DNA of 46,341 bases, taken from the NCBI GenBank assembly GCA_036000965.1, contig DASYUT010000301.1:1-46341 (forward strand). Reading direction: 5' to 3'. The notes beneath the pieces are model-generated. The model was not told the origin of the DNA. It made no database searches and saw only the letters and a list, made by a program, of their open reading frames with translations. This stretch comes from Actinomycetes bacterium. GTDB taxonomy: Bacteria; Actinomycetota; CALGFH01. Shown piece after piece: positions 6,248 to 45,400 of the stretch; the first letter of the stretch is position 1, and the number at the start of each line of letters is the position of its first letter. Made by a program: the position numbers and the translations under genes.

Positions 6248-6309
6248 GGTTGCACGCGGGTTGGCCGGGACGGCCATCTCGCCAGATGCGACCAACAGGA
6301 GTAGCCCCC

Positions 6310-8181
6310 ATGGCATGGCAGCTGCCTGGCCTCCCCGTTCGTCTGTCGTCGTCCATACGGTCGTGCTGCGCGCTGTTGGCGCTGCTCGCGCTCGTGCTGG
6401 TCGCGGCCCTCCCTCCCGGTACGCCGGCCGCCCCCGACGAGGCGGGCGGCTCGCTAGGACAGGGCGGCGTGACCGCGGCGCGCGCGACCGTCCCGCTCAT
6501 CGTCCGGGAGCGCGACCCCGGCTCGGCCCGGGCCGAGCGGCTGGTGCGCCAGCTCGGCGGGACCGTGACCCACGAGCTCCCGATCATTGGCGGCTTCGCG
6601 GCCCGCATCCGCGCCGACCGGCTCCCGCGCCTGCTCGGCTCCCCGGCGGTCCAGCGCCTCTGGCCGGACGGCCGCATCCGCATGCACGGCCTCACCGGCG
6701 GCGACGGGGACGGCGACGACCCGAAGGACCACGACCCGCTTCCCGCCGACCGGACCTGGCGCAAGGCGATCGGTCTGGACCGGCACCGCCGGGGCGGCGA
6801 ACCGTCCACCGTCGCCCTGCTCGACACCGGCATCACCCGCACGCCTGACCTCGACGGCCGGGTGCTGGCTCGGGTGGACCTGACCGAGGAGCGCGACGGC
6901 TACGACCGCTTCGGGCACGGCAGCCATCTCGCCGGCGTGATCGCCGGCAACGGCGAGATGATGGACGGCAGCGCGGGCGGCAGCAGCGGGGGTGGCTATC
7001 AAGGCGCCGCGCCCACGGCCCGGCTCGTGTCGGTGAAGGTGGCCAACTGGAGCGGGGCCACCGACGTCTCGGTGGTGCTCGCCGGCCTGCAGTGGGTGGT
7101 CTCCAACCGGGTCCGCCTCGGCATCAAGGTCCTGAACCTGTCCTTCGGCACCGACTCCACCCAGAGCTACCTGGTCGACCCCCTCGACTACGCGGTCGAG
7201 CGGGTGTGGCGGTCGGGGATCCTGGTGGTGGTGGCGGCCGGCAACGACGGCGAGCTCGTGTCGCCCACCATCCGCAAGCCCGGCGACGACCCCTTCGTGC
7301 TCACCGTCGGCGCGGCCGACCTCAACAACACGAGCAGGACCGGCGACGACGTGGTAGCGCCGTTCTCGAGCCGGGGCACGACCGCCGAAGGCGTGGCAAA
7401 GCCGGACCTGGTCGCGCCGGGCACCTCGATCCTCGGCATCCGCGCCGTGGACAGCACGATCGACCGTCTCCGTCCGGCCGCGCGCTACAACCGCCACTAC
7501 TTCAAGGGGACCGGCACCTCCCAGGCCGCCGCGGTCGTCTCCGGCGTCGCCGCGCTGCTGTACCAGGAGGACCCGGCCCTCCGGCCCGACGTCGCCAAGG
7601 CGGCGCTGCTCGACACCGCGCAGCAGTACCTTGCCGGCCAGCCCGGCGCGGGCGCCGGCCTGGTGGACGCCGGCGCCGCGACCGCGGCGGTGAGGCGCGG
7701 GGCGTACCGGTCCCACCCTGCCAACCAGGGCCTGCGGTCCTCGACCGGTCGCGGCTCCCTGGAGGCCAGCCGCGGGTCGCTGCGCGCGTACACTGACCTT
7801 GACGGCGACGGTGCGCCGGAGCCGGTCGCCGGCGAGGTGGACGCGCTCGGGAGGGTATGGGATGCGGCCGCGTGGACGGCCACGTCTTGGACAACCGCGA
7901 CGTGGCCATGGTCGCCCTGGTCCCGCCTGGTGGCCGAGGCTCCTGGGTGGGAGGTCGAGCCCCAGGGCGGGGACTCCTGGAGCGGCATGGGCTGGGACGC
8001 CAGGTCCTGGAGCATCAAGCACTGGGGCGGCCTCGGAGACGACCCGAGTGCCTGGGAGATCAAGCACTGGGGCGGCCTCGGAGACGACCCGAGCGGCTGG
8101 GAGATCAAGCACTGGGGCACCTTCGGAGTCGACCCGAGCGGCTGGGAGATCAAGCACTGGGGCGCCGAGAGCTGGAGTTGA
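6310..8181 (+). CDS. Secreted subtilisin-like (S8) serine protease with Trp-rich C-terminal repeats
   Basis: A 623-residue exported protease. Residues 1-43 form a signal peptide with a Leu/Ala core. Residues 55-115 resemble an inhibitor/pro-domain. The triad is complete: Asp172 in VALLDTGI, His203 in GHGSHLAGV and Ser404 in GTGTSQAAAVVSGVAALL. The oxyanion-hole region reads VVVAAGNDGE. Beyond the catalytic domain (after about residue 465) lies a Trp-rich tail with several SW, TW and GW pairs and three 15-residue repeats of the form IKHWGGLGDDPSGWE. Trp-rich tails occur in some other actinobacterial subtilases, probably for wall or substrate binding. The start is the ATG after AGGAG rather than the upstream frame opening at 6250. 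Confidence 0.92.
   Translation: MAWQLPGLPVRLSSSIRSCCALLALLALVLVAALPPGTPAAPDEAGGSLGQGGVTAARATVPLIVRERDPGSARAERLVRQLGGTVTHELPIIGGFAARIRADRLPRLLGSPAVQRLWPDGRIRMHGLTGGDGDGDDPKDHDPLPADRTWRKAIGLDRHRRGGEPSTVALLDTGITRTPDLDGRVLARVDLTEERDGYDRFGHGSHLAGVIAGNGEMMDGSAGGSSGGGYQGAAPTARLVSVKVANWSGATDVSVVLAGLQWVVSNRVRLGIKVLNLSFGTDSTQSYLVDPLDYAVERVWRSGILVVVAAGNDGELVSPTIRKPGDDPFVLTVGAADLNNTSRTGDDVVAPFSSRGTTAEGVAKPDLVAPGTSILGIRAVDSTIDRLRPAARYNRHYFKGTGTSQAAAVVSGVAALLYQEDPALRPDVAKAALLDTAQQYLAGQPGAGAGLVDAGAATAAVRRGAYRSHPANQGLRSSTGRGSLEASRGSLRAYTDLDGDGAPEPVAGEVDALGRVWDAAAWTATSWTTATWPWSPWSRLVAEAPGWEVEPQGGDSWSGMGWDARSWSIKHWGGLGDDPSAWEIKHWGGLGDDPSGWEIKHWGTFGVDPSGWEIKHWGAESWS
8014..8148. repeat. 45-bp in-frame tandem repeat, three units
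   Basis: Three 45-base units encode the IKHWG...PSGWE repeats of the subtilase tail, and a partial fourth follows. The first two units are almost identical at DNA level; the third has changed several codons. This points to recent expansion of the tail. Confidence 0.9.
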
Positions 8182-22289: not shown

Positions 22290-23360
22290 GTGAGCGACCC
22301 TACGGGTCGGGCCGGCAGCGCCCGGGGACTGGTGCGGCAGTCAACGACCGTGCGGGCCAGCCTGGCCGGCGCGATCGCGGCGGCGGTCACCGCGGCGGCG
22401 ATCCTGGTCGGCAGCCGCGGTCTGCGCTATTTCGACGCCGCGCTGGTCGGGTACGCCACCGCGACGGTGTTCCTGGCGTTCGGGGTCGCCTACCGCTATG
22501 CCGTCTGGGTGTCCAGCCCGCCGGCCCGCCGCTACCTGCGCCGCGGCTGGGGGGCGTTCTTCTCCTGGCGCAACTTCCGCCGGCTGCCGACGGCGGTGCC
22601 GCGCTCCCTGGTCACCTATTTCGGCTTCCAGGCCTTCCTGCGCGCCCGCGGCCGGGGTCGCTGGCTCGCCCACCAGCTGCTGTTCTGGGGGGTGGTGCTG
22701 GCCACCGTGATCACCTTCCCGCTGACGTTCGGCTGGTTGGCCTTTCTCTCCGACAGCGCCACCGGTCCGAGCTACTCGATCTACTTCCTCGGGTTCCGAA
22801 CGGTCAGCTTCGACGCGCTGTCGCTGGCCGGCTGGGTGGTCTTCCACGGCCTGGACGTCGCCGCGGTGCTGGTGCTGGCCGGCTGCGGCTACTTCCTGTG
22901 GCGTCGCTTCCGCGACCGCGAGGCCAGCACCGGGCAGCGCTTCGGCTACGACTTCTTCCCACTGGTCGGCCTGGTCGCCATCTCGGTCACCGGGCTGCTG
23001 CTGACCTTCTCGAGCTGGCTGCTGGACGGGCGCAGCTACGACTTCCTCGCGATCGCCCACATGGCGACGGTGGTGCTGACGCTGGTGTTCATCCCGTTCG
23101 GCAAGTTCTTCCACGTCATCCAGCGCCCCGCCAGCGTCGGCGTCGAGGTGTACAAGCGATCGGCACTCGACCGCGACGGAGTGTTCCCCTGCCGGCGCTG
23201 CGGGCAGCCGCTGGAAGCCAAGGCGTTCGTCGCCGATCTGCAACAGACCATGGAGGAGCTCGGCTTGGGGTTCCCGGAGTGGGCCGAGACCTGCCCGCGC
23301 TGCAAGCGGGTCCTGCGTGGCCAGGCCTACCTCGACAGCGTCAAGCGGGGGTTCCGGTGA
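22290..23360 (+). CDS. Membrane cytochrome b-like anchor with C-terminal zinc ribbon
   Basis: A 356-residue protein starting at GTG. Six to seven hydrophobic segments span residues 20-275. His residues in AHQLLFWG, VFHGLDV, IAHMATVV and GKFFHVIQRP are placed like the haem ligands of NarI/HdrE-type quinol-oxidising subunits. The C-terminal 65 residues contain CRRCGQPLEAKAF and CPRCKRVLRGQAY, two CxxC pairs forming a zinc ribbon or rubredoxin-like metal site on the cytoplasmic side. Its stop overlaps the GTG of the molybdopterin enzyme, so they should form one complex. It probably passes electrons from the quinol pool to the reductase. The metal-binding tail on such a subunit is unusual. Confidence 0.78.
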   Translation: MSDPTGRAGSARGLVRQSTTVRASLAGAIAAAVTAAAILVGSRGLRYFDAALVGYATATVFLAFGVAYRYAVWVSSPPARRYLRRGWGAFFSWRNFRRLPTAVPRSLVTYFGFQAFLRARGRGRWLAHQLLFWGVVLATVITFPLTFGWLAFLSDSATGPSYSIYFLGFRTVSFDALSLAGWVVFHGLDVAAVLVLAGCGYFLWRRFRDREASTGQRFGYDFFPLVGLVAISVTGLLLTFSSWLLDGRSYDFLAIAHMATVVLTLVFIPFGKFFHVIQRPASVGVEVYKRSALDRDGVFPCRRCGQPLEAKAFVADLQQTMEELGLGFPEWAETCPRCKRVLRGQAYLDSVKRGFR

Positions 23361-25645
23361 CCACCAAGGCCCGCTATCCGATCGTGCCGCCCGGGGTCGG
23401 GGACTTCCGCGGCGAGGCCGGCGGGGAGCCGGCCGCCCATTGGAAGGCGACGGTGGCCGGTGAGCGGCTGGTCCCCACCCACTGCTCGTTCTGCGGGGTG
23501 CAGTGCGGCATGTACCTGCGGGTCGCCAAGGGCAGGGTGGTCGGCGTGGAGCCCCGCAACCACGACATCAACAAGCTGCGGCTGTGCCCCAAGGGGGTGG
23601 TCGCCTACCAGCAGGTCCACCATCCCGACCGGCTGCTCACCCCGCTCGCGCGCGACCGCCGCGACGCGCCGCTGCGGCCGGTCTCCTGGGACGCCGCCCT
23701 GGACCGGGTGGTGGGCGAGATCCAGCGGGTCCAGGCGGCGTACGGGCGCGACGCGTTCGGGGTGCTGGGCGGGGCCAGCATGACCACCGAGAAGACCTAC
23801 CTGGCCGGCAAGTTCGCCCGGGTGGCGCTGCGCACCCGCCATATCGACTACAACGGGCGGCTGTGCATGGTCTCGGCGGCGGCTGCCAACAAGAAGGCGT
23901 TCGGCATCGACCGGGCCGGCAACCCGTGGGCCGACCTGCTCGAGACCGAGGTCATCATCGTCGCCGGGACCAACATCGCCGAGTGCTTCCCGGTCGCCAT
24001 GCAGTACTTCTGGGGCGCCAGGGACCGCGGCGCCAAGCTGGTGGTGGTCGACCCGCGCGAGACGCCGATGGCCCGCACCGCCGACGAGCACGTGGCGCTG
24101 CGGCCGGGCACCGACGCCGCCTTCTACAACGGGCTGCTCCACGTGCTGGTCCGCGACGGGCTGACCGACGAGCGGTTCATCGCCGAGCACACCGTCGGGT
24201 GGGAGGCGGTGCGCGACACCGTCGCCGCCTACACCCCCGAGCGGGTGGGCGAGATCTGCGGGCTGGACCCCCGCCAGGTCGAGCGGGTCGCGCACCTGTG
24301 GGGCCGTGCCCGGCGCGCCTGGGCGGCGCACGGGCGCGGGCTGGAGCAGCACCTCCAGGGCGTGGACAACGTCCTGGCTTGCATCAACGTGTCGCTGGCC
24401 ACCGGGCAGATCGGCCGGCTGGGCGCCGGCTACGGCACGCTCACCGGCCAGGGCAACGGCCAGGGCGGCCGCGAGCACGGCCAGAAGTCCGACATGCTGC
24501 CCGGTATGCGCGACATTGAAAACCCCGAGCACCGCGCCTATATCGCCAAGGTGTGGGGCATCGACGAGGCCGACCTGCCCGCCAAGGGCACCTCGATGCA
24601 GGAGATGGTCTGGCAGATGGCCCGCGGCGAGATCCGCGGGCTGCTGGGGATCTGCAACAACCCGCTGGTGTCGCTGCCCAACCAGGCGGTGGTGCGAGCC
24701 GGCTACGACGCGCTGGAGTTCCACGCCCAGTCCGACTTCTTCCTGTCCGAGACCGCCGCCCGCGCCGACGTGGTGCTGCCCACCACCGTCTGGGCCGAGG
24801 ACGAGGGGCTGGTCACCAACGGCGAGGGCCGGGTGATCAAGTACAACAAGGCCGTCGAGCCGCCCGGGGAGGCGCGCACGGACTGGGAGATCCTGTGCGA
24901 GCTGGCCCGCCGGCTCGGGGTGGGCGACAAGTTCTCCTTCACCAGGCCGGCGGAGATCCTGGACGAGCTGCGGGTCGCCTCCCGGGGTGGGGTGGCCGAC
25001 TACTACGGCATCACCTACGAGAAGGTCGAGGCGACCGGCGGGGTCTTCTGGCCCTGCCCGACCCTGGACCACCCGGGCACGCCGCGCCCGTTCGAGGGCG
25101 GCCGCTTCTACCACCCCGACGGCAAGGCCCGCTTCCACGCCGTCGAGTGGCGCCCGCCCGCGGAGCCGCCAGACGCGGAGTACCCGCTGCGGCTGACCAC
25201 CGGACGGACGGTCGCCCACTTCCTGTCCGGCAACCAGACCCGCCGCCTGCCCGGCCTGGTCGAGCAGACCCCGCGCCCCTGGGTGGAGGTGCACCCGTCG
25301 CTGGGGTTCGCCGACGGCGACCCGGTGCGGGTGGTGAGCCGCCGCGGACAGGCGACCTACCCGGCGCTGGTCACCGAGGCCATCCGCCCCGACACGGTGT
25401 TCGTCCCCTACCACTGGGCCGGCCGGGTCGCGGCGAACCTGCTCACCATCGACGCGCTGGACCCGATCTCCAAGATGCCCGAGTTCAAGGTCTGCGCCTG
25501 CCGGGTCGAGCGCGGCCAGGCCGTGGACGCGGTGCCCGAGCCGCCGATGCCGCCCGGGCGAGCGCCGTACGCCGCCGAGACCGCGCCGCTCGCCGAGCGG
25601 CGCTCGCCGACCATGCCCCAAGGCCGGGGCACCGCCGAAGGATGA
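23357..25645 (+). CDS. Molybdopterin oxidoreductase, probable nitrate reductase catalytic subunit
   Basis: A 762-residue Mo-bis-MGD enzyme whose GTG overlaps the previous stop. Cys43, Cys46, Cys50 and Cys77 (HCSFCGVQCGMYL, then LRLCPKG) bind a [4Fe-4S] cluster. Cys170 in NGRLCMVSAAAANKKAFG is the probable Mo ligand, in the context of Nap/Nas nitrate reductases rather than the Sec/Cys-His-Gly of formate dehydrogenases. Further pterin-binding segments include VIIVAGTNIAECFPVAMQ, TGQGNGQGGREHGQKSD and the C-terminal LRLTTGRTVAHFLSGNQTRR. There is no Tat signal, so it is cytoplasmic. With the ferredoxin, Rieske and NarK-type genes downstream, nitrate reduction is the best reading. Another oxyanion substrate or a formate reaction cannot be excluded. 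Confidence 0.82.
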   Translation: MTTKARYPIVPPGVGDFRGEAGGEPAAHWKATVAGERLVPTHCSFCGVQCGMYLRVAKGRVVGVEPRNHDINKLRLCPKGVVAYQQVHHPDRLLTPLARDRRDAPLRPVSWDAALDRVVGEIQRVQAAYGRDAFGVLGGASMTTEKTYLAGKFARVALRTRHIDYNGRLCMVSAAAANKKAFGIDRAGNPWADLLETEVIIVAGTNIAECFPVAMQYFWGARDRGAKLVVVDPRETPMARTADEHVALRPGTDAAFYNGLLHVLVRDGLTDERFIAEHTVGWEAVRDTVAAYTPERVGEICGLDPRQVERVAHLWGRARRAWAAHGRGLEQHLQGVDNVLACINVSLATGQIGRLGAGYGTLTGQGNGQGGREHGQKSDMLPGMRDIENPEHRAYIAKVWGIDEADLPAKGTSMQEMVWQMARGEIRGLLGICNNPLVSLPNQAVVRAGYDALEFHAQSDFFLSETAARADVVLPTTVWAEDEGLVTNGEGRVIKYNKAVEPPGEARTDWEILCELARRLGVGDKFSFTRPAEILDELRVASRGGVADYYGITYEKVEATGGVFWPCPTLDHPGTPRPFEGGRFYHPDGKARFHAVEWRPPAEPPDAEYPLRLTTGRTVAHFLSGNQTRRLPGLVEQTPRPWVEVHPSLGFADGDPVRVVSRRGQATYPALVTEAIRPDTVFVPYHWAGRVAANLLTIDALDPISKMPEFKVCACRVERGQAVDAVPEPPMPPGRAPYAAETAPLAERRSPTMPQGRGTAEG

Positions 25646-25685
25646 GCGCGAGCACCCGGGCGAACGCCCGGGAGGGAGCCGGCCC

Positions 25686-26249
25686 ATGATGGGGACCACG
25701 CTGTTCATCGACCCCGGCCGCTGCATCGGCTGCCAGGCCTGCGTGGCCGCCTGCCGGGAGTGCGACTCCCACCGCGGCAAGTCGATGATCCACCTCGACT
25801 ACCTCGAGCCCGGGCGCTCCGCCGCCGCCATGCCCACGGTGTGCATGCACTGCGAGGACCCGGTGGCGCCATGCGCCGAGGTCTGCCCAGCCGACGCGAT
25901 CCTGGTCACCGCCGACGGGGTGGTCCAGGAGGCGGCCAAGGAGCGCTGCATCGGCTGCGGCAACTGCGTCGACGCCTGCCCCTTCGGGGTCCCCAAACTC
26001 GACGTCGAGCAGCTGCTGCAGTACAAGTGCAACCTCTGCTACGACCGCACCTCGGTCGGGCTGGCGCCCATGTGCGCCACCGTCTGCCCGACCAGCGCGA
26101 TCTTCTACGGCACGGTCGAGGAGCTGGAGGCCGACCGGCCGGGCGCGCAGGCCGTCGACGTGTTCGGCTTCGGCGCCGCCGAGGTCCGCACCGGCGCCGC
26201 GGTGGTGGTACCCGCCGGCCACGCCGGCCCGGTCCCCGGCGGGCTCTAG
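25686..26249 (+). CDS. Four-cluster ferredoxin subunit (NrfC/DmsB-like)
   Basis: A 187-residue iron-sulfur protein with four cysteine groups: CIGCQACVAAC, CMHCEDPVAPCAEVCP, CIGCGNCVDACP and CNLCYDRTSVG with CATVCP. This arrangement carries four [4Fe-4S] clusters and links molybdopterin subunits to membrane anchors. The first ATG is preceded by GGGAGGGAG; a second ATG three bases later is equally possible. The C-terminal 35 residues are Ala/Gly/Val-rich without motifs. It should transfer electrons between the b-type or Rieske subunits and the catalytic subunit. Its stop overlaps the GTG of the Rieske gene. Confidence 0.9.
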   Translation: MMGTTLFIDPGRCIGCQACVAACRECDSHRGKSMIHLDYLEPGRSAAAMPTVCMHCEDPVAPCAEVCPADAILVTADGVVQEAAKERCIGCGNCVDACPFGVPKLDVEQLLQYKCNLCYDRTSVGLAPMCATVCPTSAIFYGTVEELEADRPGAQAVDVFGFGAAEVRTGAAVVVPAGHAGPVPGGL

Positions 26250-26728
26250 TGGCCCGGGACGAGACGGCAACACGGGCGCTGCTCGACCGCATCCGGGCCG
26301 ACGCGCCGGTGACCCGGCGCGACTACCTGCGCATCCTGGTCACGGTCTCGGGGGGGCTGGTGGCCGGCGCCGCCGCGGTGGCGACCGGGGTGTTCCGCCG
26401 CCACGGCACCGGAGCGGCCCCGCCGAGGAAGGTGGCCGACCGGCTCGCCCCGGGCGAGGCGGTCGCCTTCCGCTACCCCGGCGCCGACGACCGGGCGCTC
26501 GCGATCCGCCTGCCGGGCGGCCAGCTCGTCGGCTACTCGGCGGTCTGCACCCACCTGGCCTGCGCGGTCCTCTGGCGCAGGGAGGAGGGCGAGCTGCAGT
26601 GCCCGTGCCACGACGGGGTGTTCGACCCGGCCAGCGGCGAGGTGCTGGCCGGGCCGCCGCCCCGGCCGCTGCCCAAGGTGCTGCTGCGCGAGGACGGCCA
26701 AGGGATCTGGGCCGTGGGGACCGGCTGA
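26249..26728 (+). CDS. Rieske [2Fe-2S] protein with Tat-like N-terminal anchor
   Basis: A 159-residue protein beginning at a GTG that overlaps the ferredoxin stop. The N-terminus has TRRDYLRILVTVSGGLVAG, a twin-arginine-like segment followed by a hydrophobic anchor. The Rieske motifs CTHLAC and CPCHDG each provide one Cys and one His for a [2Fe-2S] cluster. The usual Gly of CTHLGC is Ala here. The DGVFDPASGEVLAGPPPRPL segment closes the domain. It resembles Rieske subunits of cytochrome bc complexes, but its place in the operon suggests it relays electrons from quinol to the nitrate reductase module. That role is inferred. Confidence 0.88.
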   Translation: MARDETATRALLDRIRADAPVTRRDYLRILVTVSGGLVAGAAAVATGVFRRHGTGAAPPRKVADRLAPGEAVAFRYPGADDRALAIRLPGGQLVGYSAVCTHLACAVLWRREEGELQCPCHDGVFDPASGEVLAGPPPRPLPKVLLREDGQGIWAVGTG

Positions 26729-27144
26729 TGGCCGCCGGCGAGGGCCACGGCCGGCCGGCGCCCCGCGACCGCGGCGACGACCCTGACCGGGACCAGCCCT
26801 ACCGCGCCCGCGGGCTCGCGCCCTACCGGCGCGACGCCGGCCTGTACGACAGCGGGCTCACCGGCCGCTACCCGGGCCTGCGCGGCAGCGGCACCCGCGA
26901 CCCGCGCGTCCGCTCGACCGGCCCCGGCCAGGGCGGCGACCAGCCCCCGGAGCGCGCCGCCATGCTGGCCGGCCGCATCGCGATCACTGCCACGGTTGTG
27001 GTCGGGCAGCTCTGGGGGCTCACCGTCGCCCTCAACGCCTGGCAGGAGGACCGACCGGGCCAGGTGTGGCTGCTGCTCGCGTTCCAGGCGCTGTCGTTCG
27101 CGCTCGCCGTGGCCGTCTGGCTGGCCGCCCCACGGGACCGCTGA
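26728..27144 (+). CDS. Small membrane protein of the nitrate operon
   Basis: A 138-residue protein whose ATG overlaps the Rieske stop (TGATG). The first 80 residues are polar and Arg/Asp/Gly-rich (RDRGDDPDRDQPYRARGLAP). They precede two transmembrane helices (AGRIAITATVVVGQLWGLTV and VWLLLAFQALSFALAVAVW). I do not recognise a family. Its place between the Rieske and transporter genes, with translational coupling, suggests an accessory subunit or assembly factor of the reductase complex. No NarJ-like chaperone is otherwise present. Confidence 0.65.
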   Translation: MAAGEGHGRPAPRDRGDDPDRDQPYRARGLAPYRRDAGLYDSGLTGRYPGLRGSGTRDPRVRSTGPGQGGDQPPERAAMLAGRIAITATVVVGQLWGLTVALNAWQEDRPGQVWLLLAFQALSFALAVAVWLAAPRDR

Positions 27145-27156
27145 CCAAGGAGCCGC

Positions 27157-28410
27157 ATGACCCGAGACACCCTGCCGCCGGAGCCCGCCAACCAGGCCGA
27201 GGGCCGGGCGCCGGCCTTGCTTGGCCGCAACCGCGCCCTCGCCCTGGCCACCCTCGGCTTCGCCGTCAACTTCTGGGCCTGGTCGCTGCTCAGCCCGCTC
27301 GCCCCCAGATACCAGGACCTGCTCCATCTCAGCCCGCTGGCGGTCGCCGTGATGGTGGCCGTGCCGGTGATCGTCGGGTCGCTCGGACGCATTCCCCTGG
27401 GCGCCCTCACCGACCGCTACGGCGGCCGGGTCGTGTTCGCGCTGCTGTCGTTCGTGGCCATCGCGCCGGTGCTGTTCTTAGCCTTCGCCACCGCCTACCC
27501 GGCGCTGCTGGCCGGCGGGTTGGTGCTCGGCCTTGCCGGCGCGTCGTTCGCGGTCGGGGTGCCGTTCGTCAGCGCCTGGTACCCGCCCGAGCGGCGCGGC
27601 TTCGCGCTCGGCGTGTACGGCATGGGCAACATCGGCGCCGCCATCTCCGGCTTCCTCACCCCCCGGATCGCCAATTCCCTCGGCCGGCCGTGGCCATTTC
27701 TGATCGTGGCGGTCGGCCTGGCCGCTGTCGGGCTGGCGTTCCTGCTCGTCGGGCGGGACGCCCCCGGCCGGCCGCGGGCGACCGAGCCGTTCATGGCCCG
27801 GTTCGCGGCCGCCCTGCGCCTGCCGGTCGCCCGCGACCTCGCCGTCCTGTATGCGATCACCTTCGGTGGCTTCGTGGCGTTCGGCGTGTACCTGCCGACC
27901 TTCCTGAAGACGGTCTACCGCCTGGGAGCCACCGACGCGGCCAGCCGAGCGGCCGGGTTCGTGGTGCTCGCCACCCTCGCCCGGCCGGTCGGCGGCTGGC
28001 TGGCCGACCGGGTCAGCGGGGTCCGCGTGCTGCTCTGGGCGCTGGGGGTGGTCGCCGCCAGCGCGGTCGTCACCGCTTTCCAGCCTCACATCGCGGTCGC
28101 TACCGTCGCGTTCCTGGCCATGGCGGTCGCCCTCGGGGTCGGCAACGGCGTCATTTTCGCGCTGGTCGGCAAGCACGTCCCGCCGACCCAGGTGGGCAGC
28201 GTGACCGGGGTGGTCGGTGCGGCCGGCGGCCTGGGCGGCTTCCTGCCCCCGATCGTCATGGGGCTGGTCTACCAGGCAACCGGCGACTACGCGATCGGGC
28301 TGATGCTACTCAGCGACGTCGCCCTGGCCGGGCTGGTGTTCACCGCCTGGCGCCTTGGCGGCAAGGCCGCTGGCCGAGACGAGGCCCGGACGGTCCGGAC
28401 CGCTCGCTGA
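27157..28410 (+). CDS. NarK-type nitrate/nitrite transporter (MFS)
   Basis: A 417-residue major-facilitator protein with 12 predicted helices, preceded by AAGGAG. The MFS loop motif appears as GRIPLGALTDRYGGR near residue 75. The nitrate-porter signatures are GVYGMGNIGAAISGF near residue 153 and, in the second half, VALGVGNGVIFALVGKH followed by GSVTGVVGAAGGLGGFLPP. These Gly/Asn-rich helices line the anion path in NarK/NasA carriers. It is last in the operon, 12 bases after the small membrane protein, and should import nitrate or exchange it for nitrite. In mycobacteria, narK2 belongs to the DosR regulon, in keeping with the island next door. Confidence 0.88.
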   Translation: MTRDTLPPEPANQAEGRAPALLGRNRALALATLGFAVNFWAWSLLSPLAPRYQDLLHLSPLAVAVMVAVPVIVGSLGRIPLGALTDRYGGRVVFALLSFVAIAPVLFLAFATAYPALLAGGLVLGLAGASFAVGVPFVSAWYPPERRGFALGVYGMGNIGAAISGFLTPRIANSLGRPWPFLIVAVGLAAVGLAFLLVGRDAPGRPRATEPFMARFAAALRLPVARDLAVLYAITFGGFVAFGVYLPTFLKTVYRLGATDAASRAAGFVVLATLARPVGGWLADRVSGVRVLLWALGVVAASAVVTAFQPHIAVATVAFLAMAVALGVGNGVIFALVGKHVPPTQVGSVTGVVGAAGGLGGFLPPIVMGLVYQATGDYAIGLMLLSDVALAGLVFTAWRLGGKAAGRDEARTVRTAR

Positions 28411-29515: not shown

Positions 29516-31135
29516 TCAGCGCGGGATCACCACGCGGACCAGGGTGCCTTGGGCGAGGACGCTGGAGACCTCGGCCCGGCCGCCGAGGGCCGCGGCCCGC
29601 GCACGCAGGTTCCCCAGCCCGTGGCCGGTGTGTGCCCGCTCGTCGGGGTCGAAGCCGCGGCCGTCGTCCTCGATCTCCAGCACCGCGTCTCCGCCGCTGG
29701 CGTACAGCGACACCCGGCAGGTCGGCGCGCCCGCGTGCCTGCCGACGTTGGACAGCGCCTCCCGGGTGAGCTGGACCAGGTCGCCGGCCCGGTGGGCCAG
29801 CGCGGCGGCGACCGCCGGGTCGATCTCGGTGACCGCGACGATGTCGGTGCGTTGCTGGAACTCCTCCACGAGCTGGCGCAGGGCCTGGTCGAGCTGCCGG
29901 TCGGCCAGGATGCCCGGGCGCAGCCCGAAGATGTAGTTGCGCAGGTCACCGATGACGCGGTCCATCTCCTCCACGGCCCCCTCGATGCGGCCCGCGACGC
30001 CGGCGTCGCGGGCCAGCGTGGCGGTGGCCTGCAGGCCCATCCCGACCGCGAACAGCGACTGGATGACACCGTCGTGGAGCTCCTTGGCGATCCGCTCGCG
30101 GTCTTCGAGCACGGCCAGCCGCTGCAGCTCACGCTGCAGGCGGGCGTGCTCGAGCACCACCGAGGCCTGCTCGGCGAACGTCTCGGTGAGGCCGACGTCA
30201 GCGTCACCGAAGCGGGCGCCGCCGGCGGCGTTGGCGACCAGCAGGGTGCCGAACGGCCGTCCTTGCGCGGTCAGGGGGACGAACAGCGCCGGACCGATCC
30301 CGCCCGCGCGGACGATCGGCTGCCAGGCCCGGTCGTCGGCGGCGGCGTCGGCCAGCACCACCGCCTTGCCGGTACGGATGACCTCCCCGGAGACCGAGCT
30401 CTCGGTCGGGAAAGAGGCTCCCCGTAGCTCGGCCGCGTGCAGGCCGGCGGCGGCCTGCAGGACGAGCGTCCCCTCGTCAGCCGGCGTGGCGATCGTCGTC
30501 AGGTCCGCGCCGACGAGCTCCCGGGCGTGGCGGGCGACCAGGTCGAGGGCGGCGTCGAGCTCGGTCCCGGCCAGGATCGCCGTGGTGACCGCGCGGATGG
30601 CCTCCAGACGCTGCGCGCGGTGGTGGGCCTCCTCGTACAGGCGCGCGTTCTCGACCGCCACCCCGGCCTGCGCGGCCAGGACCTCCAGGGCCCGCTCGTC
30701 GTCGGCGTCGAACTCCTCCGCGCCCTGCTTCTCGGTCAGGTAGAGGTTGCCGAAGACCGTGCCGCGGGCGGTCACCGGAGCGCCCAGGAACGAGCCCATC
30801 GGCGGGTGGTTGGGCGGGAACCCGACCGACCGGGGGTCGTCGGCGATGCGGCGCAGGCGCAGCGTGCGGGCGTCGTGGATGAGCACGCCCAGGATGCCGT
30901 GGCCGACCGGCAGCGGCCCGATCGCGGCCCGCTCCTCGGCGGTGACGCCGGTGGTGACGAACTCGGTGATCGTGCCGTCGGCGCCGAGCACGCCAAGCGC
31001 CCCGTAGCGGGCGCTGGTGAGCTCGGCGGCGAGGTCGACGATGCGCTGCAGGATCGCGGGCAGCGACAGCTCGGAGGACAGGGCCAGCCCGGCCTCCAGC
31101 AGCCGCTCGCCGCGGTCCTGCCAGCCGTTCATCAC
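29516..31135 (-). CDS. devS: DevS/DosT-like GAF sensor histidine kinase
   Basis: A 539-residue soluble kinase with the layout GAF (about 20-170), GAF (about 185-335), HisKA_3 and HATPase. GAF-1 contains VGFPPNHPPMGSFLGAPV and GTVFGNLYLTEKQGAEEF. This is the segment most typical of mycobacterial DevS/DosT, where a His near here binds haem for O2, NO and CO sensing. The phospho-acceptor is in ERIAKELHDGVIQSLFAVG. The ATP-binding part has EALSNVGRHAGAP and IEDDGRGFD, then GHGLGNLRARAAALGG. It should phosphorylate a NarL-type regulator, and the DevR-like gene at the right end of the window is the obvious candidate. Haem binding is inferred from family resemblance. Confidence 0.88.
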   Translation of the reverse strand: MMNGWQDRGERLLEAGLALSSELSLPAILQRIVDLAAELTSARYGALGVLGADGTITEFVTTGVTAEERAAIGPLPVGHGILGVLIHDARTLRLRRIADDPRSVGFPPNHPPMGSFLGAPVTARGTVFGNLYLTEKQGAEEFDADDERALEVLAAQAGVAVENARLYEEAHHRAQRLEAIRAVTTAILAGTELDAALDLVARHARELVGADLTTIATPADEGTLVLQAAAGLHAAELRGASFPTESSVSGEVIRTGKAVVLADAAADDRAWQPIVRAGGIGPALFVPLTAQGRPFGTLLVANAAGGARFGDADVGLTETFAEQASVVLEHARLQRELQRLAVLEDRERIAKELHDGVIQSLFAVGMGLQATATLARDAGVAGRIEGAVEEMDRVIGDLRNYIFGLRPGILADRQLDQALRQLVEEFQQRTDIVAVTEIDPAVAAALAHRAGDLVQLTREALSNVGRHAGAPTCRVSLYASGGDAVLEIEDDGRGFDPDERAHTGHGLGNLRARAAALGGRAEVSSVLAQGTLVRVVIPR

Positions 31136-41898: not shown

Positions 41899-42482
41899 CT
41901 GCACCGGTCGCTGCCGCTGCTCCTGCATGCCCTGCAGCGCCCGGCTCGAATCGGCTAGCGTCGTTTCCGTGGCGCAGCCTGATTGGAAAACAGACCGACT
42001 TCGCCTGATATGAGCCCGGTTTTCACGTCCGCACGGCGTCCCCGCAGGGACATGGAGACTGTCTTGGCAGTCGCCGTGATCGCCTGGCTCGGCTCCAGGG
42101 CCCGTGTGCCACTGGCCTGGGGTCGCGGCAGCGTCGCTGGTCCTCAGCCTCGCCGCGCTCTGCGTAGCGATTGTGGGTGCGTTATCACCGTCGCGTTGCG
42201 GCTCCTCATGACCCGAAGCACGCAAGATGGGCCGGCGACGAGAGGGCGCCACCGCGCGCGCGACCGCTGGGCCGGGCTCCGCGGACGGCAGGCGAACGGG
42301 CATCGGGGCCCGGCACAGCCCTCCCGTCCGGGCTCGACCAGGCGTGTCTGGGGCGAGGTGGCAGCGGGCGAGTGGTAGTGGATGGAGGTTCCCGCATGCG
42401 AGACCCAGCCCGACTCCCCTCGGGCCTGAACGGGAGCCGTGCGGGCGCCACGTGTCCGCAGGGACCCAAGGGTCAGCGGGGC
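41899..42482. other. Gene-poor spacer
   Basis: No supportable gene. A short hydrophobic frame near 42090-42210 (AASLVLSLAALCVAIVGALS) lacks a start and ribosome site and may be a decayed membrane protein. A small palindrome, GACCCAAGGGTC, lies near 42462-42473, close to the 3' end of the next gene. Confidence 0.5.
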
Positions 42483-45400
42483 CTACAGCGCGAACTCGCG
42501 CGCGTCCCCGGGCGGGATCTCGACGACCTCGTCGCCGAAGCTGACCTTGATGGGGGCGCCGGCCGACGGACGCACCCGTACCCGGGCGCGGTCGAGCAGG
42601 ACATGCAGGTTGACCCCCCAATGTCCCCGGTAGCGGAGGTCCGCGTCGAGCCCGCTGAGCTCCTCAGGCAGGCTGGGGTTCAGCCACAGCACGTCCCCGC
42701 GGATCTCGATGCCCGTGTAGCAGCGCTGGGCCAGGTCGACCGTGCCGGCCATGGCGCCCAGGTGGATGCCTTCCGCGGTGGTGCCGTCCTGGACGTCGTG
42801 GAGGTCTGAGGCCAGCGCTTCGGTGAAGAACCGCCACGAGCGAGAACGGTCCGACCGGGCCAGCACCCAGGCGTGGACGACGCTGCTCAGGGTCGAGCCG
42901 TGCGAGGTCCGGGCCAGGTAGTAGTCGACGTTGCGGCGGATCGCGGCGGCCTCGAGCGGGTAGCCGAGCCCGCCCAGCAGCTCGCGCAGCTCGTCGGCGG
43001 ACAGCAGATAGAACAGCATGAGCACGTCCGCCTGCTTGGACGCCTTGTAGCGGTTGGGGGAGTCGCCTTCGGCCTCGAGGATCCGGTCGAGCCGGCGGAT
43101 GTCTCCGTGGCGGCGCCGCAGGCTGTCCCAGTCCAGCTCCTCGAGCCGGTCGTAGCCATCGAACTGGCTGATGATGTCGCCGTCGTGGAACGCGACCCGC
43201 ATCCGTCGGGTCACATCCCGCCAGCGTCGGATCTCCTCGGGCTGGAGGGCCAGCCGCTCCTCCAGCTCGACACGACGGTGCCCGGGCAGCACCTCGAGCA
43301 CGTCCAAGGCTCGGTGCAGGACCCACACGGCCATGACGTTGGTGTAGGCGTTGTCGTCCAGCCCAGGCCGGTCCGCGTCCGGGTAGGCGTCGTGGTACTC
43401 GTCGGGGCCCATGACCCCGAGGACCCGGTAGCGGCCCAGCGCGTCGTCGAAGGTCGCGCTGCTCGCCCAGAACCGGGCGATCTCGAGCAGCATCTCCGCG
43501 CCGTGCTCGGACAGGAACCCGAGGTCGCCGGTGGCCTGGTAGTAGTGCCAGACGTTGTAGGCGACGGCGACGTTGACGTGCCGCTGCAGATGCGAGTGGT
43601 CGGGCAGCCAGCGTCCCGAACGAGGGTTGAGGTGCAGCCGCTGGGTCTCCTCGCGGCCGTTGCTGCCACTCTGCCACGGGTACATGGCGCCCGCGTAGCC
43701 CGCCTCCCGTGCCGCCCAGCGCGCCTCGGGAAGGCGCCGCCAGCGGTAGCGGAGCAGCGCGCGGGCCAGTTCCGGGAACCGGAGGTTAAGGAAGGGGAGG
43801 ATGAACAGCTCGTCCCAGAACACGTGCCCCCGATACGCCTCGCCGTGCCACCCGCGCGCGGGCACGCCGACGTCGAGCTCGACGCTGTGCTCCGAGATGG
43901 TCTGCAGCAGGTGGAAGACGTGCAGGTTGAGGATGCGGGCGGTCTCGTCGCCGGCGTCGATGGCCAGCCGGCAGCGCCGCCAGAGCTGGTCCCACGCCAG
44001 CGCGTGGCGCTCCAGCAACTCGGCGAAGCCGCCGGCCCGCGCGACCCGCTGGCGCGCATCCAGGGCGCCATCGGTGATGGCGCGGTCCCGGGAGGTGAAC
44101 AGGGCGACGATCTTCTCCACCATGACCGGCACGCCCTGCTCGACTTCCAGCGTCAGGTCCTGGGCGGCGAAACCGGGTTCCACGAGCGTCCGCCGCTCCG
44201 TCGCGAGCAGCCGGCCGCCGCCCAGGACCCGGGTCCTGGCCGCCTGCGCGATCCGCACGCCCGAGGCGGTCGTCTCGACCTGCAGCCAGATCGTCTCGTC
44301 GCCGTCCTGGCCGGCGTCGACCGGGACCAGGTGCCGGCCGTTCAGCTCGCGGTAGCGCGCCACGCCGGCGTTGGTGACGCGGCCGTCCAGGGCCGAGCGG
44401 ACCCCTAGCCGTCCCGACCAGTTCTCGGCCACGAAGGTCGTCTCCAGCCCGGCCAGGTGCGGGTCGCCCATGTGCACCAGGCGGCGCTGGGTGACCCGGG
44501 TCACCCGTCCCTCCCGGTCGCGCACGCGCAGGTGCCGGGCGAGCACGCCCCGGCGCAGGTCGAGCTCCTGGCGGTAGTCGGGCAGGTCGGCCGCGCCCGG
44601 TTCGAACCAGTCGCCGCCGACGGCCTGGAAGGTGAGCGGCAGCCAGTTCGGCACGTTGACCAGATCTTCGTTTTCGACCGCGCGGCCCGCCATCTCGGTG
44701 ACGAGCCGGTTGTAGCAGCCGGCGACGTACGTGCCCGGGTAGTGGACGCCGTCGGCGCGGGCCTCGGGCGCGGCCCCGCGGGTGGCGAAGTAGCCGTTGC
44801 CGAGCGTGCACAGCGCCTCCCGCAGTCCCTCGGTGGCCGGGTCGAACCCCTCGTAGGCCAGCGTCCAGGCGTCCGAGGCCAGGGCCTGCGGGTCAGGCAG
44901 GTCGTCCAGGTGCAGTTCGGCGAGGTCGCCGACAACCACGTCGGCGCCGTGCTCGGCCAGGGCAGCCGCCTGCCCGACCCGGTCCACGCCGACGACCAGG
45001 CCGAAGCCACCCCGGTGGCCGGCCTCCACGCCCGCCAGGGCGTCCTCCACGACCGCGGCCCGCTCCGGCGCCACGCCCAGCCGCCGGGCCGCCTCGATGA
45101 ACAGCGCGGGGTCGGGCTTGCCGGCCAGCCCGAGCCGCGCGGCCTCCACGCCGTCGACCTGCGCGTCGAACAGGCTGCGCACACCAGCAGCATCGAGCAC
45201 GGCAGCGGCGTTGCGGCTCGACGAGACCGCCGCCGCGGGTACCTCGCGGGCCCGCAGCGCCCGCAGGAATGCCACCGTGGAGGGGAATGGCGGCGCGCCG
45301 TCCTTGGCCAGCTCCTGGAGGAAGTAGCCGTTCTTGCGGTTGCCGAGTCCACACACCGTCTCGCGGTCGGGCGGGTCGTCCGGCTCGCCGCGGGGCAGGT

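Follow-up and report, generated by a model that had tools for sequence, protein, structure and literature searches.

Several described systems come close to the operon reported here. The hallmark of NarGHI is a NarG-clade catalytic subunit with an aspartate ligand to molybdenum. NapA is exported by the Tat pathway and is found with the cytochromes NapB/NapC. NasC of the Bacillus/Paenibacillus/Mycobacterium type is soluble, receives its electrons from NAD(P)H or a ferredoxin partner, and is encoded without a four-cluster ferredoxin, a NarI-like anchor or a Tat Rieske protein; in Paenibacillus its gene comes directly after NirB. In haloarchaea, the genes narGH are accompanied by narB, encoding a Rieske protein, and narC, encoding a cytochrome b of 486 aa, and the NarG-type enzyme is exported and faces the outside (PMC2483277). 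Arsenite oxidase AioBA has a Tat-type Rieske partner and lacks a four-cluster subunit and an anchor, and AioA is periplasmic, with no protein ligand to Mo (PMC7331816). Mycobacterial EtfD carries electrons between cytosolic Fe-S clusters, heme b and menaquinone (PMC13083937). A survey of the DMSO reductase superfamily in 2020 reported that no NasA/NasC, AioA, NapA-clade enzyme or related formate dehydrogenase has canonical four-cluster and membrane-anchor subunits, and its evolutionary argument rests on that absence (PMC7331816).

The window analysed here is a stretch of 46,341 nucleotides of actinobacterial DNA. It carries six co-directional genes, g1 to g6, at positions 22290-28410 of the + strand, all of them present as in the preliminary description of this DNA. 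The first, g1 (22290-23360), encodes a membrane anchor assigned to the NarI superfamily of cytochromes b (356 aa), with a C-terminal four-cysteine (CxxC...CPxC) cytoplasmic domain, and g2 (23357-25645) encodes the catalytic Mo-bisPGD/[4Fe-4S] subunit. They are followed by a DmsB/FdnH-type ferredoxin with four [4Fe-4S] clusters (g3, 25686-26249, 187 aa), a Rieske [2Fe-2S] protein with the twin-arginine motif TRRDYLR and an N-terminal hydrophobic segment (g4, 26249-26728), a small DUF6755-like membrane protein (g5, 26728-27144, 138 aa) and a NarK-like MFS nitrate/nitrite transporter (g6, 27157-28410, 417 aa). Stop and start codons overlap at three junctions, namely g1/g2 (GTGA, 4 bp), g3/g4 (TAGTG, 1 bp) and g4/g5 (TGATG, 1 bp), and the gaps elsewhere are just 40 bp (g2-g3) and 12 bp (g5-g6), so that the close spacing of all six genes described earlier is borne out. 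The overlaps had been said to tie four of the six genes together; they are real, but they join five genes, in two blocks. The operon showed no gene for a NarJ-like chaperone, and none of its six genes matched a c-type cytochrome family in Pfam.

A sample of 297 genomes of the phylum contained g1 homologues (E < 1e-70) in 15, spanning seven family codes, and 24 loci with g1 came from named genomes, among them Streptomyces, Microtetraspora, Catellatospora and Acidimicrobiia. In each of the 30 other loci with a contig long enough to judge, the genes g1-g2-g3-g4 lie next to one another in the same orientation; these loci come from Actinomycetota (including Streptomyces and Acidimicrobiia) and from Deinococcus plasmids. 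A chance grouping of the operon genes is therefore excluded. The Deinococcus plasmids have the identical six-gene order, the exact arrangement that the preliminary description had proposed to search for, followed by a gene for a GAF-domain regulator. The proteins carry generic or misleading database names: in Deinococcus they are annotated in order as 'MFS transporter' (the anchor), molybdopterin oxidoreductase, 4Fe-4S, Rieske, DUF6755 and MFS. Contamination or a binning artefact as the source of the operon in this metagenome-assembled genome is ruled out, because the g2 gene also occurs, at 89% identity, in both other genomes compared from the same family. One genome (G103) has two divergent copies of the operon (L063 and L064), which fall into separate subclades in the tree of g2.

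The lineage of the catalytic subunit was analysed with IQ-TREE under LG+C20 using 30 sequences, and a tree on a wider set was also built. In the 30-sequence tree the catalytic subunits of the operon are monophyletic (support 100/99) and are sister to the Gram-positive cytoplasmic NasC (95/92; joint clade 100/100), represented by sequences from Paenibacillus, Mycobacterium, Arthrobacter, Deinococcus and Streptantibioticus. The formate dehydrogenases group apart in a clade of their own (100/99), and a further clade unites NapA and proteobacterial NasA. A place for g2 inside the formate dehydrogenases had been named at the outset as the outcome that would overturn its assignment, and the tree puts it outside them. 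The subunit is far from E. coli NarG and has Cys170, not Asp, at the Mo-ligand position. Its best match in NCBIfam is NasC, at 801 bits against a cut-off of 1100, and it also falls below the cut-off for Fdh-alpha (606 bits against 666).

The molybdenum ligand motif of g2 is R-L-C170-M, so that the cysteine in a Nap/Nas context reported earlier is exact, and across the clade the motif is RLCM or RMCM, as in nitrate reductases. The formate dehydrogenases compared have C/U-H at this site, or C-Q in one case, and none has Met after Cys. At the site of the catalytic arginine of formate dehydrogenases, the operon clade reads TGQ, as part of TGQGNGQGGREHG or of a closely similar sequence, almost the same as in NasC, whereas every formate dehydrogenase compared keeps RGQ or RGH. 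Both Cys-Met and Thr-Gly-Gln are found in all operon-clade members aligned. The published active-site classes of formate dehydrogenases are Cys/Sec-His (or Gln) with Arg-Gly-(Gln/Glu/His) (PMC8808070). No homologue of g2 has a hydrophobic stretch before the first cluster cysteine, in agreement with the absence of an export signal noted before, and this supports the prediction that the catalytic subunit is cytoplasmic.

For g1 alone, no Pfam or NCBIfam family scored above its cut-off. The Pfam family Nitrate_red_gam matches 7 of 31 g1 homologues (best E 1.2e-4), and hhalign aligns g1 with E. coli NarI at E 1.3e-4, placing H257 and H275 over H187 and H205, which are heme ligands in NarI, both pairs having an 18-residue spacing. 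Three histidines of g1, H128, H257 and H275, never vary; H186 is kept in 29 of the 31 homologues and replaced by Arg in two. From this conservation and from the helix order and topology, we infer an n-side heme pair H128/H275 and a p-side pair H186/H257. The four cysteines of the C-terminal domain are invariant in the 31 homologues, and our guess is that they form a structural zinc site. A structure model of g1 (mean pLDDT 82) was compared with known structures using Foldseek; the best match was M. smegmatis EtfD (PDB 9ojn; probability 1.0, E 0.064) and there was no match at E <= 0.001, while a PDB profile search with g1 gave nothing significant. EtfD differs from the predicted anchor in that it is fused to an Fe-S domain, has Hdr-like noncubane and linear clusters and one heme, and reduces menaquinone. 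The NarI-likeness of g1 is remote but supported.

The ferredoxin g3 matches Pfam Fer4_11 and the NCBIfam DmsB and FDH-beta families, and its 16 invariant cluster cysteines correspond to four clusters. The Rieske protein g4 matches Pfam Rieske and has one hydrophobic segment. In 24 homologues its invariant residues are R23 and R24, C100, H102 and C105, C118, C120 and H121, and G135-P136-P137; the ligand motifs are of the bc1 type, and the disulfide cysteines and GPP loop are kept in all 24. Its nearest solved relatives are the Thermus bc1 Rieske protein and AioB; a Rieske subtree gave no AioB-like or bc-like placement of g4, the domain being short and two AioB rows having been left out. The NarI-like anchor, DmsB-type subunit and Tat-like Rieske protein first recognised in the operon are each supported by sequence. 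The same genome encodes QcrA with an adjoining membrane ORF, plus an aa3-type oxidase subunit, on contig C69, and g4 is therefore an extra Rieske protein beside the respiratory one of this genome. Two more Rieske proteins of the bc/b6f kind with twin-arginine starts occur in this genome besides QcrA (L095 on contig C350 and L096 on C251).

The small protein g5 scores 20.9 bits with Pfam DUF6755, under the cut-off of 27, and its position matches that of the annotated DUF6755 gene in the Deinococcus loci. The transporter g6 matches Pfam MFS_1, and scores 221.6 bits with the NarK family TIGR00886 against a cut-off of 311.7. In Streptomyces hydrogenans (L034:1-7845) the operon comes after NarK (312 bits), NirB (943 bits), pyruvate formate-lyase (1186 bits) and its activase, an apparent hypoxia island; pyruvate formate-lyase and activase adjoin the operon in two further loci (L036 and L045). 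Genes of the TM_HPP family lie downstream of the operon in seven loci by clustering, checked with Pfam in two. According to PMC7438415, which cites Maeda 2014, the HPP proteins of cyanobacteria and chloroplasts are nitrite transporters. The NarK, NirB and HPP-family neighbours in relatives point to nitrate. In the window, a possible regulator is encoded on the - strand at 29516-31135, a DevS/DosT-like kinase of GAF-GAF-HisKA_3 architecture (Pfam), whose first GAF domain matches DosT/DevS GAF-A (E 1.9e-43) and whose HPPM motif is kept. Kinase-related ORFs lie beside the operon in L030, L047 and L058 by clustering, checked with Pfam in L030, and GAF kinases or GAF-BTAD regulators flank it in relatives and in Deinococcus.

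No other Nar, Nap or Nas catalytic subunit is recognisable in the genome of the window; a genome search found no NarI-family protein, and NirK gave no match over its cut-off. The other molybdopterin proteins of the genome are an NAD-type formate dehydrogenase, a formate dehydrogenase with an in-frame TGA, NuoG, and one without assignment. A distant molybdopterin oxidoreductase of unassigned function, about 30% identical to g2 and with no family over cut-off, is encoded on contig C321 at 6307-7893 (L003, L056).

The product of the operon is probably a menaquinol:nitrate oxidoreductase that is bound to the membrane and faces the cytoplasm, with a catalytic subunit taken over from the lineage of soluble NasC enzymes. 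The quinol-linked cytoplasmic nitrate reductase of the preliminary description is in this respect supported, as a prediction, by the tree, the active-site signatures, the NarK/NirB/HPP neighbours and the anchor homology. Judged by sequence, g2, g3 and g1 have the composition of a complex iron-sulfur molybdoenzyme (CISM), with Mo-bisPGD, four-cluster and anchor subunits. The suggestion that Nar, Nap and Nas systems lack such a composition also holds. The operon resembles NasC in its sister catalytic clade, active-site motifs and nearby NirB and NarK, but always has the three components that are missing from the NasC genes. It resembles NarGHI in its cytoplasmic catalytic subunit, four-cluster subunit and NarI-superfamily cytochrome b with a helix V histidine pair, and probably in its redox-loop topology, and differs in its non-NarG clade, Cys ligand to Mo, lack of NarJ, extra Rieske and DUF6755-like proteins and four-Cys anchor domain. 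Unlike NapA, g2 has no signal peptide, belongs to another clade and is encoded without a c-type cytochrome. The haloarchaeal operons share the pairing of a Rieske protein and cytochrome b with a nitrate reductase, but g2 is of NasC type and predicted to be cytoplasmic.

Sequence establishes the gene composition, its conservation, the clade and motifs of g2, the lack of an export signal in g2 and the invariant twin-arginine motif of g4; the activity of the predicted complex, its formation, heme number and direction of electron flow are what we infer in the following scheme. Nitrate would be brought into the cell by g6, as expected from its homology to NarK. Menaquinol would be oxidised on g1 close to its outer face, at a site that g1 probably shares with the exported Rieske protein, and electrons would cross the membrane by the b hemes of g1, at the p-side pair and then the n-side pair. 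They would pass on through the four clusters of g3 and the cluster of g2 to Mo-Cys170, where nitrate would be reduced to nitrite in the cytoplasm. Energy would be conserved in the manner of NarGHI, by the release of protons on the outside and their consumption on the inside. In relatives with the relevant genes the nitrite may go to NirB or be moved by HPP proteins. The Rieske protein may serve either as an obligatory relay at the outer face or as a second, Q-cycle-like exit. Several observations count against this scheme: the NCBIfam scores for NasC and NarK are below their curated cut-offs, the homology of g1 to NarI is remote with nothing from Foldseek at E <= 0.001, a NarJ-like chaperone was not observed among the operon genes, and the pyruvate formate-lyase neighbours in Streptomyces would pair naturally with a formate dehydrogenase. 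In addition, NarI-type anchors need no Rieske protein, yet one is constantly present here.

The same complex could serve nitrate assimilation, with quinol as just the source of electrons. This is compatible with the main electron path, and the sister relationship to assimilatory NasC and the NirB adjoining the operon in some relatives are in its favour. We nevertheless think it somewhat unlikely, given that an anchored complex with a quinol link and a four-cluster subunit has the build typical of respiration, that both the DevS-like kinase and the relatives' pyruvate formate-lyase point to hypoxia, and that NirB was not found in the genome of the window by a PF03460 search, which matches only one ORF, on contig C39.

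A more doubtful proposal concerns the Rieske protein, for which a second electron route had been suggested early on. What stands is that a Tat-type, bc1-like Rieske protein is always encoded with the complex; a second route would go beyond this. In a Q-cycle-like bifurcation, menaquinol at the outer face would be split, one electron passing by the Rieske protein to a high-potential carrier or oxidase and the other by the b hemes to nitrate. The invariant bc1-type disulfide cysteines and GPP loop of g4 and its best solved matches, the bc1 Rieske protein and AioB, would suit such a mechanism, and a Q-cycle has been proposed for the haloarchaeal nar operons with the Rieske protein NarB (PMC2483277). 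On the other hand, g1 is like NarI and EtfD rather than bc1 cytochrome b, the operon has no cytochrome c gene, and the genome has a separate QcrA and aa3-type oxidase.

It is very improbable that another oxyanion (chlorate, selenate or arsenate) is the true substrate of the predicted enzyme and nitrate a side substrate. Enzymes of the DMSO reductase family are promiscuous and the NasC and NarK scores are sub-threshold, but genes related to nitrate and nitrite repeatedly adjoin the operon and the active-site signatures match nitrate reductases. That the operon is a membrane-bound formate dehydrogenase is scarcely credible and was rejected on the tree and active-site motifs: the Fdh-alpha score just under cut-off and the pyruvate formate-lyase neighbours in Streptomyces are outweighed by the Cys-Met active site, the replacement of the catalytic Arg by Thr in all clade members aligned, the separate, fully supported clade, and the nitrate-type transporters and NirB nearby.

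The operon is a conserved counter-example to the statement of the 2020 survey (PMC7331816). Its parts are all of known kinds, and literature searches found no description of such an operon among open-licence papers, so the combination appears to be undescribed in that literature. It couples a Nas-lineage enzyme with a Rieske protein, a pairing known from arsenite oxidase. If active as predicted, it would represent another way of building a quinol-linked nitrate reductase, in actinobacteria and in Deinococcus, and gene surveys that look for narG or napA would not detect it.

The formate dehydrogenase frame of the same genome with the in-frame TGA lies on contig C208 at 42015-45050 (L005). The TGA comes directly before His-Ser-Ala-Thr, at the usual selenocysteine site, and suggests possible selenoprotein use in this actinobacterium.
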